The notes under the pieces: generated by a model
Told to the model about the DNA's origin: nothing
What the model saw: only the letters and a program-made list of their open reading frames with translations
Database searches by the model: none
Translations under genes and position numbers: made by a program
NCBI RefSeq assembly: GCF_032854445.1
Contig: NC_088295.1
Location: 52,249,249 to 52,313,248 of the forward strand
Length of the DNA: 64,000 bases
Direction: 5' to 3'
Origin: Liolophura sinensis
Taxonomy: Eukaryota > Mollusca > Polyplacophora > Chitonida > Chitonidae
Shown here: positions 2,891 to 62,145 of the stretch, in pieces
How positions within the stretch are numbered: the stretch's first letter is position 1
Layout of the letters: each line of letters starts with the position of its first letter

Positions 2891-4490
2891 TGGAGACATT
2901 AGAATGACAAAACTCACCAGTTTATAATGCAATGTATCTGTGCAGCACAGGCTATATACAAAACATATACATTTAGCTTAAGTATTTATGTTGAATGGGG
3001 TTGCTGAAACATTCCTGGAGCTGAGATCGAGGCATTGATATCCAGCAAGTTATTTACATATCAAAGAGAGGAAATTAAGGTATCCGCCTAGTGGAAATTG
3101 TGGTGCTTTTGTCTTGTAAGCTGCTGTGACAGTTGATTGTATCATTATATTTGGTTGTTGGGTAGAGACGTTCTGCTTGAAGTTTGCAATTCGGGCATAT
3201 TTAAGTCTTATAAGCGTTACTTCTTAGCCAGTTTAACTCATTACTTCAAACGAAACAACTGAAATTGGCAACTCTCAAGCAATATTTTCCTCTTGTAATG
3301 ACTCGTGATAGCCATGTGTACAATTACTTTGAGAAAGTAACACCACCTTGAGAAAGGTTTGAGCTACATGTAGACTGCTACATGCTACCTGCTGCACAAA
3401 GTTTTCATCTTAGCAATAGCAGATCAAGTAAAGTGGTTAGCATTAACAGAATGTGCGACAAACTGATTTCTTTATCCCTAATATTGAGGGAGTTCAGACT
3501 ATTCCAAAACTTTACAGCCTTCCCCCTCCCCAATTAATTTGTTGATGCCTGTTGTTTGATCATATAACTTTATAAGATGGACTTGGTTAGACCTGTAAAC
3601 TTATGTACATGAAAACTTAGGTACAAATAGTCGTTTTCAGATTTTCTTTTGTTTTGTAAGAATTTTCTGCTTTCGGTCAGATGTACCTGTATGTGTGTGA
3701 ATTTCCTGCATCTACGTGTATCTCGCATGAATGTAAAAAAATTACCTGCTCTTGATCAACAAATGAATAAGCAGTGAAACACTTAAATTGTCTACCTCCT
3801 TCTAGTCAACTCAAAGTTCTTAAAGAGTTTGCTACAAGTATAAATATCTCGCTCTTTCATATTTAATGGTTACATGACGTGGAATGTATTCCTTACTGAA
3901 AAGCATTTTTAACTTTGTCTTTTGGCCTTGTTACTTTCACGGATGTTAGTAGTAACATATTCATCATACTCAAGGTTCCAGTTATTTATGGGCTAAGTTT
4001 ATTTATTTTTATAGCATCATATAAGGGCAAAAATTGCATATACTAGTCATTACCTTAACCAAGCACCGTAGTGTCTTTTTTATCTTTCCTTTCTGCTTAT
4101 TATTTATTTATTATGGCACTGTTAATTTATATCAGTATGCATATTGATAGTGCTTTGTTGGATAACCCACTCCTGTTCCACATTTAAAAAAGTTCATCAT
4201 TTAACGGTGTACTATCCAAGCTAGCACATATCTAGTAGCACATATGTATGGGTATACTTTTATTGTCAGAAATGTTAGCTTATTTTTCCTTTCCTAGAAT
4301 AATTTAAGCAATGATTCCATGATGGTTTTTTTTTTCTTTTTTTTTTAGAACACCCAGCAGGTGTACTGTACAGGCAAAACAAATGACAAGATGAAATAAT
4401 GTCATTGAAAATTAACTGACATCTGGTTTGATTTCTCTCGATTTATCAATGACATTTGCAAATACATGTAGGTGTGTGTTTGGTGAGGTA

Positions 4491-4880
4491 CTGGATACTG
4501 TCATTGTCAATAACTCTGTACAGGATACTGTCATTGTCAATAACTCTGTACAGGATACTGTCATTGTCAGTAACTCTGTACAGGATACTGTCATTGTCAA
4601 TAACTCTGTACAGGATACTGTCATTGTCAATAACTCTGTACAGGATACTGTCATTGTTAGTAACTCTGTACAGGATACTGTCATTGTCAGTAACTCTGTA
4701 CAGGATACTGTCATTGTCAGTAACTCTGTACAGGATACTGTCATTGTCAATAACTCTGTACAGGATACTGTCATTGTCGATAACTCTGTACTGGATACTG
4801 TCATTGTCAATAACTCTGTACAGGATACTGTCATTATCAATAACTCTGCACAGGATACTGCCATTGTCAATAACTCTGTA
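4491..4880. repeat. 30-bp minisatellite, 13 units
   Basis: Thirteen consecutive 30-bp units share the core CAGGATACTGTCATTGTCA with a few substitutions. The unit length is a multiple of three and lacks stops in two forward frames and one reverse frame, which creates long open frames of decapeptide repeats (DTVIVNNSVQ in one frame). No splice or start context supports coding. Confidence 0.95.
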
Positions 4881-15600: not shown

Positions 15601-18600
15601 GAAATCCAAAATTTGATTACAGCAATACAAACTTGAAATACCAAATCTGAAAGCTTTATCTGAAGGGCTTAGACTTTTGAAGGGATGAACACTGTACAAC
15701 AACATAATCTCTTTGGCACAATATGTAAGAATCAGAGGCAATTGGCCTTCAATGTAATGAAATATCAAATTCTATCATGGTATTTATTTTTGTCATGTTC
15801 AAAGCCAGTTATGGGATGTCAAAACACACTATTTGACCCTAGTGGAGGAGTTGGAAAGGTCAGACTGATATAATGCACTTCACACAACACTTAGCAGGTG
15901 ATGGGTTGATAAACCCCGGTGACTGTGTTACTGTGTGGTATTGCACTAATCCCATACCATTAACAGCGGTCAGTTTTGACCATGCCACAGACTGCACAGT
16001 ATTATGCATTTAGATGTGTTTTCCATTCCAAACTATTTTATTACTCACCCTATATCATTTCACTCACCTTGACTACATTTGTTCCATCTGATGCAGACAC
16101 AAAGTAAAATGGCATATTGTATTTTTTAGCGAAATGGAAACTTTTCTTAGTAACACTGTAATCAACTGAAAATAGAAAAACAGATGAAGGAATGATTGGG
16201 GTTTACACCCTCATTGTTGTAAAACTGAACATGCACAATTATTTACTGGTAAAAACAAACTGAATTCACTCACAATATCTGCCAATTTCACCACCAGAAA
16301 CAAATTAAGACAGTCCAAACTGCCTTTGGCATGTAACTGGCAGACCTTCCCGCCCAGAAAATGTCCAGATTTTCACTCGCCAACGAGTGTCTTTAACAGC
16401 CACAACCTTCTCCCAGAAAATAGTTTAAGTCATGGTCAAAACAATAGAGATATCACTTTCTCCTGTAACAATTTGATTGCCAAAACCAAAGTAATTCAAC
16501 ATCCCATAAAAATCAAATAAATTGTGCCAAAACTTTTAAACATGTTTACATTACTTTACATTTGCAGATTAATTAACCTCCACACTAAAGGTTAACCTAC
16601 CCATGTATTTCGGTTGACAACACACACAAACAGTACTCATGCTCACCTTCTATTTCTTTGGCAGCAGACACAGTACTCGTGTTTTAACAGTAACTTATTA
16701 TCTACATGCATTTCTTTGGCAGCAGACATAATACCATGCTTATTTTCACCACTCGAACAAAGTACTTATAGTCACCATCTATTTTGTTGATAGCACACAC
16801 ACACAGTACTCATGATTATAGTCACCGTCTATTTTGTTGACAGCACACAGTACTCATGCTTATACTCACCATCTCTTTTGTTGACAGCACACAGTACTCA
16901 TGCTTATTGTCACTATTTTGTTGACAGCACACAGTACTCAGGCTTATAGTCACCATCTATTTTGTTGACAGCACACAGTAATCATCCTTACAGTCACCAT
17001 CTCTCTTCTTGACAGCACACAGTACTCATGCTTATAGTCACCATCTATACTCATCATCTATTTTGTTGACAGCACACACACACACAGTACTCGTGCTTAT
17101 ACTCATCATTTATTTTGTTGACAGCACACACACACACAGTACTCATGCTTACAGTCACCATCTATTTTGTTGACAGCACGCACACACACAGTACTCATGC
17201 TTACAGTCACCATCTATTTTGTTGACGGCACACACACACAGAGTACTCATGCTTATACTCACCATGTATTTTGTTGACAGCACACAAGCAGACACCATAC
17301 TCTTATGCTTTGAATACTCACCATCTATTTTGTTGGCAGCACACAGACATGGTATTTCAGGACGGTATTCTCTTAACTCCTTCAACCAATTTGGTAGATT
17401 TTTATATGTAACTTTTCGACTACTATCAAAAACCTGTAAACCAGAAACAAATAGAAATTTATCCACTGTTTAATTCACCATAAACACCTTACATGAGGTG
17501 AACACATATGCTAGCTAATTCATGAGAATGGACATACCGTGTGCATGTACATACAAAGAACATTGTCTTCGTTTTATATCTTCCAAGGTGTCTTCACATG
17601 CAGTTAGCAGCATCTACCTCAGCATAGGGCTGTGTCTGTACATTGCAATATTTCTAACTGACAATTTTAAGCAAGGTCCCATACATGAAGCATATCAAAG
17701 ACTGAAAAAGCTTTGTAGGTAAATAAGAGAGTGTAAATAGCCTGGGGTTGCACAGAAGTCAAAGCTGATGTGTCACATAAGTGACAAATATACAAAATAG
17801 CGAGCTTCTACAGTTTTTCAAACATACTGCCCGAAGTGTGCTCTATCTGCATATTAAATTACTGCCCGAAGTGTGCTCTATCTGCATATTAAATTACTGC
17901 CCGAAGTGTGCTCTATCTGATATTAAATTTCTGCCCGAAGTGTGCTCTATCTGCATATTAAATTTCTGCCCGAAGTGTGCTCTATCTGCATATTAAATTT
18001 CTGCCCGAAGTGTGCTCTATCTGCATATTAAATTTCTGCCCGAAGTGTGCTCTATCTGCATATTAAATTTCAGCTCAAGCAAATCAGCCATTCTGGAGAA
18101 GAAATTCAAGCGATTCAACTCTGTGGCATTTACAGTTTTTATTCAGTTACACTAAAAAATGAGGCATAATAAAAACAGTCACACGTTTTTTAACATCTGT
18201 TTCAGAACAAATCTGTTTAACACTTTCTCCATGACACACCATTCTAATCAATCAATTCTTTGCTCTCTGAAAAGACCCCAGGCTTTTCTGATAGGAGTGA
18301 ATAAAAGATGTAAGCCATACATGACAATGACCTCTCTGCACATTGAGATCACCTTGGCAAACGTGTACAAATTTTCACTGGTCAAAGTGGATGCATGTTT
18401 TTATTAGTATTCACATAACTTGCATACACCCAGAGTGTCCTCAACGAAATCTCAAATATTCCAACGAAAAAAAAAACCCAACTTCTTCCATACCAGGCAT
18501 AATGACCGCCCAAAAGTGAACCATAGTCTCCATGCTTACAACCAATCTGTACTATTTGGTATCAATTTGGTGAAATTTTACCCATATTTACCTTCCCATT

Positions 18601-30726: not shown

Positions 30727-31417
30727 ATGAAATAGATATTTCACTCTCAAACCATAGCTGTGGGACAATGAACAAAGAAAGTGCCATTAAGAACAAAGAG
30801 GAAACTTTTCCCACAGTGCCTAACAGTATGTGTGACATTAAGAACAAAGAGGAAACTCTTCCCACAGTGCCTAGCAGTATCTGTGCCATTAAAAACAAAG
30901 ATGAAACTCCTCCCACAGTGGCTAGCAGTATGTGTGACATTAAGAACAAAGAGGAAACTCTTCCCACAGTGCCTAGCAGTATCTGTGCCATTAAAAACAA
31001 AGAGGAAACTCCTCCCACAGTGGCTAGCAGTATGTGTGACATTAAGAACAAAGAGGAAACTCTTCCCACAGTGCCTAACAGTATCTGTGCCATTAAAAAC
31101 AAAGAGGAAACTCTTCCCACAGTGCCTAACAGTATGTGTGACATTAAGAACAAAGAGGAAACTCTTCCCACAGTGCCTAGCAGTATCTGTGCCATTAAAA
31201 ACAAAGAGGAAACTCTTCCCACAGTGCCTAGCAGTATGTGTGACATTAAGAATAAAAGAGGAAACTCTTCCCACAGTGCCTAACAGTATCTGTGCCATTA
31301 AAAACAAAGAGGAAACTCTTCCCACAGTGGCTAGCAGTATGTGTGCCATTAAAAACAAAGAGGAAGTCTCTCCCGTTATTGATGTATTTTCAGAAAGTGA
31401 AATCTTGAATGTTTGAC
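30727..31417 (+). other. Possible repeat-protein exon (uncertain)
   Basis: A strong acceptor-like tract (TTTTTTTTTCAG, AG at 30725-30726) precedes an open frame that enters the 51-bp repeat array and would end in a non-repeat tail EEVSPVIDVFSESEILNV and stop at 31415-31417. A single extra A near 31253 breaks the frame in the tenth repeat. Repeat units read IKNKEETLPTVPSSMCD. No upstream exon, known domain or start is convincing, so this may be only a minisatellite. Confidence 0.3.
30780..31370. repeat. 51-bp minisatellite, about 12 units
   Basis: Unit core AAGAGGAAACTCTTCCCACA. For most of the array two unit types alternate (ending ATGTGTGACATTAAG or ATCTGTGCCATTAAA), so the recent duplication unit was about 102 bp. 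There are no stops in two plus and two minus frames apart from the one-base insertion. Confidence 0.93.
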
Positions 31418-57716: not shown

Positions 57717-58144
57717 AAACCGGACCATTACTACGTTGTTCCTCTTATGACTTCGACAAGAGGCCCAGTTCTGCCATTCTGCACGTAACAACAGTATGGT
57801 GAACACTGCTTCACCAGCCACTTTACTGTTCAGGGCAGAATTTTTATAAAATTGTACCATACCGAACAAAAACAGCTGCTAAAATTGGCGAATAGAAACA
57901 TCAGAGTCATCCATCGCTCCAGTCAGATAATGACAGATAAAATTGAAAACTCGCTGCTGGAGTAAAAATGTGCACCGTTTCTTAACACTTATTTTTCCTA
58001 GTATCCATCAGCGTCAAGTTTCTCAGTAACATATTGATGTATACCTAAAATGAAACTTTCAAGCCTTTCCTACAGATCAATACATGTTAAGTACCCAACA
58101 TGCCGAACTACATTCCAGATCCTCACCCTGATTGTCAAGTCACT
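57717..58144 (+). other. Receptor 3' flank
   Basis: No AATAAA or ATTAAA is visible before the satellite starts; only a TATAAA variant near 57845. No other feature. Confidence 0.45.
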
Positions 58145-61100
58145 ATGGCCACTTAACCATCACTTTCATTCTGCTCGGCACATGACTTCGGCAACAAGAC
58201 CATTACTTTCATTCTGCTCGTGACATCACTTTGGCAATCAGGGCGTTTACTCTCATTTTGCTGGGCTCATCACTTTGGCAATCAGGACTTTTACTCTCAT
58301 TCTGCTCGGCACATCGGTTTGGTAATCAAGGCCTTTACCCTCATTTTGCTCATCCTATCACTTTGGCAATCAGGGAGTTTACTCTCATTGTGCTCATCCT
58401 ATCACTTTGGCAATCAGGGAGTTTACTCTCATTGTGGTCATCCTATCACTTTGGCAATCAGGGAGTTTACCCTCATTGTGCTCATCCTATCACTTTGGCA
58501 ATCAGTGAGTTTACTCTCATTGTGCTCATCCTATCACTTTGGCAATCAGGGAGTTTACTCTCATTGTACTCGGCACATCACTGTCAATCAGAACTCTTAT
58601 TTTGCTCGGCTCATCACGCTGGTAATAATAGCCGTTACTTTCATTCCGCTCGCCACATCACTTTGACCAGGGCATTTACTCTCATTTTGCTCGGCTAATC
58701 ACTTTAGCAATCAGGGCCTTTACTCTCATTCTGCTCGGCACATCAGTTTGGTAATCAGGGCCTTTACTCTCATTCTCCTGGACACATCACTTTGGGAAGC
58801 AAGGCGTCTACTCTCATTCTGCTCGCCTCATCAATTTGTTAATCAGGGCCTTTCCTTTCATTTTGCTCGGCACATCACATTGAGAAACACATCGTCACTC
58901 TTATTCTGCTCGTCACATCACTTTGGCAACCAGACCATCACTCTCATTCTGCTCGTCACATCACTTTTTCAACTAGGACTCTTACTCTCATTCTGCTCGT
59001 CACATCCCTTTTGCAACTAGGACTCTTACTCTCATTCTGTTCGTCACATCCCTTTTGCAACTAGGACTCGTACTTTCATTCTGCTCGTCACATCACTTTT
59101 GCAACTAGGACTCTTACTTTCATTCTGCTCGTCACATCACTTTTGCAACTAGGCCCCTTACTCTCATTCTGCTCGTCACATCCCTTTTGCAACTAGGACT
59201 CTTACTTTCATTCTGCTCGTCACATCCCTTTTGCAACTAGGACTCTTACTTTCATTCTGCTCGTCACATCCCTTTTGCAACTAGGACTCTTACTTTCATT
59301 CTGTTCGTCACATCCCTTTTGCAACTGGGACTCTTACTTTCATTCTGCTCGTCACATCCCTTTTGCAACTAGGACCCTTAATCTCATTCTGCTCGTCACA
59401 TCACTTTTGCAACTAGGACCCTTAATCTCATTCTGCTCGTCATATCACTTTTGCAACTAGGACTCTTACTTTCATTCTGCTCGCCACATCACTTACTTTT
59501 GCAACTGGGACTTTTACTTCTAGTCTGCTCGTCACATCACTTTTGCAACTCGTACCCTTAATCTCATTCTCCTCGTCACATCACTTTTCCAACTATGGCC
59601 CTTACTCTCATTCTGCTCGTCACATCCCTTGTGCAACTGGGACCCTTACTCTTATTCTGCTCGGCACATCACTTTGGCAATCTGGGCCTTCTCATTTTGT
59701 TCGGCACATCACTTTTGCAACTAGGACTCTTACTCTCATTCTGCTAGCCACATCACTTTTGCAACTAGGACTCTTACTTTCATTCTGCTCGTCACATCAC
59801 TTTTGCAACTGGGACTTTTACTTCTAGTCTGCTCGTCACATCACTTTTGCAACTCGTACCCTTAATCTCATTCTCCTCGTCACATCACTTTTCCAACTAT
59901 GGCCCTTACTCTCATTCTGCTCGTCACATCCCTTGTGCAACTGGGACCCTTACTCTTATTCTGCTCGGCACATCACTTTGGCAATCTGGGCCTTCTCATT
60001 TTGTTCGGCACATCACTTTTGCAACTAGGACTCTTACTCTCATTCTGCTAGCCACATCACTTTTGCAACTAGGACTCTTACTTTCATTCTGCTCGTCACA
60101 TCACTTTTGCAACTGGGACTTTTACTTCTAGTCTGCTCGTCACATCACTTTTGCAACTCGTACCCTTAATCTCATTCTCCTCGTCACATCACTTTTCCAA
60201 CTATGGCCCTTACTCTCATTCTGCTCGTCACATCCCTTGTGCAACTGGGACCCTTACTTTTATTCTGCTCGGCACATCACTTTGGCAATCTGGGCCTTCT
60301 CATTTTGTTCGGCACATCACTTTTGCAACTAGGACTCGTACTTTCATTCTGCTCGTCACATCACTTTTGCAACTGGGACTTTTACTTCTAGTCTGCTCGT
60401 CACATCACTTTTGCAACTCGTACCCTTAATCTCATTCTCCTCGTCACATCACTTTTCCAACTATGGCCCTTACTCTCATTCTGCTCGTCACATCCCTTGT
60501 GCAACTGGGACCCTTACTCTTATTCTGCTCGGCACATCACTTTGGCAATCTGGGCCTTCTCATTTTGTTCGGCACATCACTTTGTGAATCAGGGCCCTTA
60601 CTCTCATTCTGCTCGTCACATCCCTTTTGCAAATAGGACCCTTACTATTATTCTGCTCGGCACATCACTTTGGCAATCAGGGCCTTTACTCTCATTCTGC
60701 TCGGTACATCACTTTGGTAATCAGGGCCTTTACTCTCATTCTGCTCGGTACATCACTTTGGTAATCAGGGCCTTTACTCTCATTCTGCTCGGTACATCAC
60801 TTTGGTAATCAGGGCCTTTACTCTCATTCTGCTCGGTACATCACTTTGGTAATCAGGGCCTTTACTCTCATTCTGCTCGGTACATCACTTTGGTAATCAG
60901 GGCCTTTTCTCTCATTTTCCTCGGCACATCAGTTTAGTATTCAGGGTCTTTACTCTCATTCTGCTCGGCACATCACTTTGGTAATCAGGGCCTATACTCT
61001 CCTTCTGTTCGGCATCACATGAACAGTCAAGGCGTTTACTCTCATACTGCTCGGCATTTCACTTTGGTTATAAGGGCCAGGCCCTTACTTTCATTCTGCT

Positions 61101-62145
61101 CGCCGAATCACTTTCGCAATGAAGGCCTTTACTTTCATTTTGCTCGGCACATCATTTTGGCAATCAGGGCCTTTCCTCTTATTCTGTTCGGAACATCACA
61201 ATAACAGGTCCTTTTCTCTCATTCTGCTTGGAACATCACTTTGGTAATTAGGGCGTTTACCTTCATTGTGCTGGGCACGTCACTTTGGTAACCAGGGCCT
61301 TTACTTTCATTCTGCTCGGTACATCACTTTAGTAATCAGGACCTTTTCTCTCATTTTCCTCGGCACATCACTTTAGTATTCAGGGTCTTTACTCTCATTC
61401 TGCTCTGCACATCACTTTGGCAATCAGGGCCTATACTCTCCTTCTATTCGGCATCACATGAACAGTCAAGGCGTTTACTCTCACACTGCTCGGCATTTCA
61501 CTTTGGTAATCAGGGCCTTTTCTCTCATTTTCCTCGGCACATCACTTTAGTATTCAGGGTCTTTACTCTCATTCTGCTCTGCACATCACTTTGGCAATCA
61601 GGGCCTATACTCTCCTTCTATTCGGCATCACATGAACAGTCAAGGCGTTTACTCTCACACTGCTCGGTACATCACTTTGGTAATCAGGGCCTTTTCTCTC
61701 ATTTTCCTCGGCACATCACTTCAGGGTCTTTACTCTTATTCTGCTCGGCTCATCACTTTTGCAACGAGGGCATTTAATCTCTTTCTGCTCGGTACATCAC
61801 TTTGGTAATGAGGGTCTTTAATCTTATTCTGCTCAGCACCTCACTTTGGTAATAAGTGCCTTTCCTTTCATTCTGCTCGGCACATCACTTTACCAACAAG
61901 ACCATTACTCTCATTCTACTTTTATTGTGCTCGGCATATCACTTTGATAAACCTTAACTCTCATTTTTTTTCGCACATTACATTAATAATTAGGGTCTTT
62001 ACTCTCATTCTGCTCGGCATATCACTTTGGCCTTTACTTTCATTCTGTCGGCACATCACTTTTGCGATCTTATTCCGCTATTCACATCCATTTTTCAACT
62101 ACGACCAGTACTCTTACTCTGATCGTCACATCACTCTGGCAACCA
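58145..62145. repeat. 44-bp satellite array, about 90 units
   Basis: Unit: TTTACTCTCATTCTGCTCGG, then TACATCACTTTGGTAATCAG and GGCC (44 bp). Roughly 4 kb of head-to-tail units diverge toward both edges. Sub-domains differ: GGCAATCAGGGAG-type at 58.35-58.56 kb, TTGCAACTAGGAC-type at 58.97-60.5 kb, GGTAATCAGGGCC-type at 60.6-60.9 kb. Long open frames here are a by-product of the repeat. Confidence 0.97.
59541..60540. repeat. 304-bp higher-order repeat inside the satellite
   Basis: The marker TTTTGCAACTCGTACCCTTA occurs at 59541, 59845, 60149 and 60409: two steps of exactly 304 bp and one of 260 bp, i.e. one 44-bp unit fewer. Copies are near identical. A second higher-order unit of about 174 bp is marked by CATGAACAGTCAAGGCG at 61457 and 61631, with an earlier copy near 61017. 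Confidence 0.93.

Follow-up and report, generated by a model that had tools for sequence, protein, structure and literature searches.

The fifth intron of a RABL2-like gene in the chiton Liolophura sinensis contains a minisatellite grown from the exon 5/intron 5 junction itself. Its repeat unit, found on the minus strand of the 64,000-nucleotide stretch of DNA that we analysed (hereafter the window), consists of ~24 exonic nt, the donor and ~20 intronic nt of that junction, and 14 further units follow within intron 5. The derivation of the repeat from the junction is confirmed, and chance is excluded because matches to a junction 20-mer and to its 18-nt core concentrate in the array, while the 823-bp array stretch is otherwise unmatched. 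The array is a clear natural case of tandem copying of a splice junction, one molecule combining donors that are strong, weak and dead. Because the decoys lie at known distances from one authentic site, it can readily be used to test which of several near-identical donors the spliceosome prefers, and whether exon ends tolerate the growth of repeats.

The RABL2 gene and its junction-derived array

An open join of eight exons (minus strand, 27593-12514) encodes a RABL2-like, cilia-related GTPase of 225 aa. The predicted protein contains a Ras-type G domain (PF00071, E = 2.2e-37) and shares 61.6% identity over 224 positions (306.7 phmmer bits) with human RABL2B. Among the best 60 of 169 solved-structure matches listed, Ran scored highest (102.5 bits) and no match was named RABL2. 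Judged by these bit scores, the chiton protein appears to resemble RABL2 more than it does other small GTPases. A protein search of the assembly (609,464,459 bases in 632 contigs, that of the window being 96,433,062 bp long) returned 29 matches, of which seven are exons at the RABL2 locus and the remaining 22, 25-44% identical, are read as other small GTPases. With only the locus of 17322-17433 being RABL2-like among the 29, a second copy or pseudogene was rejected within the reach of this search, and RABL2 is apparently single-copy in the genome.

Exon 5 terminates with the ANKID codons plus position 1 of the codon that follows them; the donor GTGAGT comes directly after, and joining it at 17322 to exon 6 at 16165 restores the frame. 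On the basis of homology and consensus, 17322/17321 is the presumed authentic exon 5 donor. Elsewhere in the gene, intron 2 (24129-23065, minus strand) looks U12-type, with the donor GTATCCTT and, shortly 5' of the acceptor, TTACCTTAAC. Because human RABL2B is counted among minor-intron genes (PMC13216214), intron 2 may be an ancient minor intron.

Features of the RABL2 exon 5/intron 5 region (window positions; scores are profile score and U1 duplex energy)
Feature	Position	Strand	Description
Minisatellite, junction unit and 14 copies	16595..17349 (lower end approximate)	minus	TRF, unit layout, identity matrix
RABL2 exon 5	17322..17433	minus	112 nt; 3' end is G4 ANKID; array seed; acceptor TTTACAG, donor GTGAGT
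RABL2 exon 6	16068..16165	minus	splice partner of exon 5
Presumed authentic intron 5 5' splice site	17316..17321	minus	GTGAGT; profile 6.21; U1 duplex -11.1 kcal/mol
Decoy donor U2	17257..17262	minus	identical to authentic from -3 to +8; 6.21, -11.1 kcal/mol
Weak decoy donor U3	17205..17210	minus	GTGACT
Decoy donor U10	16864..16869	minus	GTGAGT; 6.21, -11.1 kcal/mol
Decoy donor U14	16641..16646	minus	AAG/GTGAGC; profile 7.24, U1 -9.6 kcal/mol

TRF divides the array into two adjoining parts, of period 44 (16765-17048, 84% matches) and period 52 (17046-17349, 87% matches), both within the head-to-tail tandem units of ~10-100 bp that define a minisatellite; the 52-nt form is the 44-nt form with a longer (TG)n run. 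In our unit layout, which was anchored on motif hits with two anchors placed by hand, the units are spaced by 40-71 nt. Copies U2-U11 are 72-96% identical to one another, and the degenerate U13-U15, which fall beyond the TRF rows, are only 57-74% identical to other units. At the GCTGCC position, 12 of the 14 copies have a T, and U13 and U14 keep the exon's C. Because it is the far units that keep the C, these data fit an older small duplication that would have been followed by amplification of a changed unit.

With up to four mismatches, the junction 20-mer CAACAAAATAGATGGTGAGT has 12 matches in the window, all on the minus strand within the array, and is absent elsewhere on either strand of these 64 kb. 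Over the whole assembly, all five exact matches to the 18-nt core lie in the array, as do four of the five with one mismatch and one of the 63 with two mismatches. In total, 73 matches were found (10 in the array and 63 scattered), against 45 for the backward control. The 63 outside matches being scattered, the closest two ~10 kb apart, we rejected the idea that the array is part of a dispersed repeat; for the 823-bp array stretch, no second match was found in the assembly. The layout bears out the original prediction that about 14 units in intron 5 repeat the exon 5 end with the NKID of G4, the donor and roughly 20 bases of intron, and that the real donor, here assigned by homology and consensus, is the array's first unit in the direction of transcription. 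The predicted span of 16611-17433 does contain a real array, but its upper end is the start of exon 5, and the repeat begins near 17349.

Donor strength and computed splice products

Donors were scored with a generic profile and by pairing with the 5' end of U1. By profile, three of the 14 copies offer near-authentic donors (17262, 16869 and 16646). Seven carry a C at +5 (U3, U4, U7, U8, U9, U11 and U12), which roughly halves the computed U1 pairing: except for U9, which falls under the score cut of 2, they have profile scores of 2.2-2.5 and U1 energies of -5.1 to -5.3 kcal/mol, versus -11.1 for the authentic site. GTGA is lost in three (U5 and U6, A at +1; U13, no GTGA), U6 having a second donor, with +5C, 13 nt further on. 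U15 contains a shifted GTAGGT at 16600 (profile 2.79, U1 -10.0), which the profile rates as weak although it pairs well with U1. The ladder of decoy donors that had been proposed to confront the spliceosome was overstated.

Strong decoys are concentrated in the array, which has three in 729 nt. The remaining introns of RABL2 (13,670 nt) average 0.21 over the same length, and 93 overlapping 729-nt segments of them contain at most two strong donors each. Shuffled arrays (500) had a mean of 0.208 strong donors and a maximum of three. Sites scoring at least 2.2 number 11 in the 729 nt of the array versus 1.87 in the other RABL2 introns; because dinucleotide shuffles of the array average 4.8 such sites and reach 12, the weak sites alone are unremarkable for the base composition, and their abundance was rejected as a signal. 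No donor at 6.2 was found on the 56 strands of 28 other arrays (seven from the window and 21 from a 160-kb sample, over their TRF spans), versus three within the TRF span of the RABL2 array, counting the authentic one. At the lower cut of 5, one of these other strands has four donors and another has one.

Splice products were computed for the 11 decoys with scores above 2, each joined to exon 6. Splicing from 17262 adds 59 nt and shifts the frame; translation then ends at codon 185, within exon 6 and before two further exon junctions. The 111 nt added from 17210 keep the frame and contain no stop, giving 37 aa that end in a second NKID (CLCAANKIDGEYSKHKSMVSACVLSTKYMVSISMSTLCVCAVNKID-VDYSV). 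With 17158, the stop falls at codon 190, just inside exon 6, and the eight decoys beyond it meet an intronic stop, likewise at codon 190; among them, 16869 adds 452 nt and 16646 adds 675 nt, both running into the intronic stop. Because 17262 frameshifts and the nine later candidates stop at codon 190, the weak 17210 is predicted to be the only decoy from which an extended full-length protein is possible. In-frame or frameshifting insertions had both been expected directly after the guanine-specificity motif; the in-frame outcome is confined to 17210, the nearest strong decoy frameshifts and the later ones truncate the product. The observation behind the original prediction is real and well described, and its functional reading is weaker than it stated.

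A minor RABL2 isoform made through 17210 would have the form CLCAANKID-(28 aa)-CVCAVNKID, with a spare beta5 end and G4 built by the minisatellite, the insertion leaving a G4 loop joined directly to the native VDYSV. We consider its existence very improbable; if real, it would be a GTPase whose guanine-specificity motif was duplicated through repeat expansion.

Comparable arrays in other genes and in the chiton genome

By its layout, in which the array includes the presumed authentic 5' splice site and donor-like repeats downstream of it, the RABL2 minisatellite is predicted to be a further donor-site minisatellite of the ABCA7 and IFI6 type, the phenomenon itself being already known. The VNTR of human ABCA7 intron 18, with its 25-bp unit, is described as having the GT at the exon 18 donor for its first bases, and a cryptic donor within it leads to retention of one 25-bp unit, which breaks the reading frame and is reported to be an NMD target; transcripts bearing a PTC increase with cycloheximide (PMC5954066). 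VNTR length correlates with exon 19 skipping and not with the 25-bp retention, and the alternative transcripts combined, chiefly those skipping exon 19, often exceed the canonical one in brain (PMC5954066). In both genes, the array abuts the exon and includes the donor, the first unit holding the canonical donor (presumed in RABL2), and a donor one unit downstream adds one out-of-frame unit, as reported for ABCA7 (PMC5954066) and predicted for RABL2. The two arrays differ in that the ABCA7 unit starts at the GT, with no sign of copied exon sequence in its description, whereas the RABL2 unit has ~24 exonic nt including G4, and in that VNTR length is highly polymorphic in ABCA7 whereas the RABL2 array is known from one assembly.

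Turri et al. (1995) name in their title a minisatellite of human IFI6 (6-16) that provides multiple splice donors (as cited by PMC2572611 and PMC4526556), and its downstream repeat units are said to serve as donors for isoforms (PMC4526556). The RABL2 array likewise offers multiple donor sites by layout, but unit, gene and organism are different, and decoy use is reported in IFI6 whereas the RABL2 decoys are predicted from sequence. Tandem genomic duplication has also been described as a source of introns, a duplicated segment with a splice site yielding alternative splice sites (PMC3443670); a segment of this kind is duplicated in RABL2 as well, but the duplicates sit within an existing intron and imply no new one. 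What distinguishes the RABL2 array is a unit that carries the coding sequence of the G4 motif, and a chiton as host. Our literature search found no paper linking Liolophura japonica with a minisatellite, and none on an intron 5 array among the matches listed for RABL2 and splice. The view that expansion of a splice junction is unusual holds in that none of the 56 other array strands has a donor at 6.2, but not with regard to the similar ABCA7 and IFI6 cases.

Arrays of period 10-100 with at least five copies are frequent in this genome. Sampling the window's contig at even intervals in 20 pieces of 8 kb (160 kb), we counted 21 arrays covering 10,570 bases (6.6%), or about one per 7.6 kb, five of which are cut off at a piece's end (five of the 20 pieces end inside an array); by the same measure, the 64-kb window contains eight. 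A single junction-overlapping array is not surprising in itself, because with arrays this dense and ~28,000 genes, the number reported for the Liolophura japonica assembly (PMC11068029), some exon ends should be affected unless selection removes them. The same publication describes RNA-seq from five tissues of that species (digestive gland, foot, gill, gonad and heart). Junction-overlapping arrays may recur in such a minisatellite-dense genome, and a genome-wide count would show the strength of their selective removal.

Origin and consequences of the array

The analysis shows how the repeat is built, that the gene is open and apparently single-copy, what strengths the donors have by computation and what each would do to the frame. 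From this we infer as the probable history a neutral expansion of the junction, which splicing removes by way of the first donor while a few transcripts leak to NMD. The RABL2 exon 5/intron 5 junction would have undergone a short duplication that was amplified into intron 5 by replication slippage or unequal exchange, probably aided by the TG-rich tract from which (TG)n later grew, and the copies would then have drifted free of constraint. The authentic upstream donor 17321 would be chosen in the great majority of transcripts, so that the array is removed as intron. Some transcripts would instead use 17262, the identical donor of the next unit, and their frameshifted message would be cleared by NMD. 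This history is favored because the repeat contains only the junction, on one strand, with copies solely downstream, because the exon is open and the gene apparently single-copy, because the genome is dense in arrays (21 per 160 kb sampled), and because the ABCA7 VNTR at a donor leaks one out-of-frame unit (PMC5954066). An internally amplifying array with old edges is also expected to show the identities found (72-96% in U2-U11 and 57-74% in U13-U15). Against it counts that a preference between two equal donors 59 nt apart is not settled by strength alone, and arrays placed at donors are not necessarily without effect, because the ABCA7 alternative transcripts often outnumber the canonical one in brain (PMC5954066).

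Neutrality was addressed by an ungapped comparison of nine of the 14 copies, with U9, U12, U13, U14 and U15 dropped for indels or degeneracy and U6 represented by the exonic half at its first donor place and the intronic half at its second. In the exonic half, 8/189 cells depart from the column majority, versus 12/189 for the intronic one (p = 0.49); donor-critical columns have 4/36 such cells versus 16/342 elsewhere (p = 0.11, not significant). These p-values are guides only, as the cells are not independent. The copied coding part shows no sign of constraint, because the two halves vary equally, and we find no firm sign of selection against decoys. An apparently better conservation of the exonic half in raw MAFFT columns (93% vs 77%, U2-U12) was gone in the ungapped recount, and we put it down to misaligned indels in U6 and U12.

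We also considered that RNA structure conceals the decoys. The 844-nt exon-plus-array fold has a z of -1.69 and is more stable than each of 20 shuffles, so that a structural effect of the array RNA is possible. Six local 49-nt folds do not stand out, with z between -1.37, the value of the authentic junction, which 20 of 200 shuffles equalled or bettered, and 0.46, and support for concealment is weak at best.

In an alternative that we regard as unlikely, the array is a regulated splice switch, in which decoy use would route RABL2 mRNA into NMD and so adjust how much GTPase is made, according to the length of the array. The nearest decoy's sequence identity with the real donor (-3 to +8), its frameshift and its stop before two further exon junctions speak for a switch, and the excess of strong decoys over the other RABL2 introns and the 56 other array strands points the same way, as does the correlation of exon 19 skipping with ABCA7 VNTR length (PMC5954066). 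However, 11 of the 14 copies have donors that are weak or lost by profile, variation appears neutral half by half, and one-unit retention in ABCA7 is unchanged by VNTR size (PMC5954066).

Slightly less likely still is that the +5C and +1A changes were favored for disarming the copies. The +5G-to-C change and the loss of GT in many copies could mean such selection rather than drift (p = 0.11): +5 departs from the exon state in eight of the 14 aligned copies, a count exceeded by just one exonic column (12/14) among the 32 unit columns numbered 2-34, and GT was lost by separate routes. Most of this is, however, explained by a shared ancestral +5C amplified once, the critical columns are not significantly more variable, and a strong decoy persists beside the exon. 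That the array was created or mis-sized during assembly is the least credible reading, since, error-prone as tandem arrays are and modest as the published HiFi coverage is (14X; PMC11068029), the copies are mutually diverged (57-96% identity) and the ~750-bp array is far below the 8.3-kb mean HiFi read (PMC11068029).

The window also contains other arrays. One in RABL2 intron 4 (17827-18071, 35 nt x 7), ~0.4 kb upstream of exon 5, is probably young because its matches reach 98%. At 30781-31365, a 51-nt x 11.5 array alternates two unit types; its unit length is a multiple of three with several frames open, and it might be coding. Several frames are also open in a 30-nt x 13 array at 4488-4880 (95% matches). 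A very long 44-nt x 86 array at 58162-61917 has a strong strand skew; the 2-kb bins that make up 58001-62000 have GC skews of -0.36 and -0.29.
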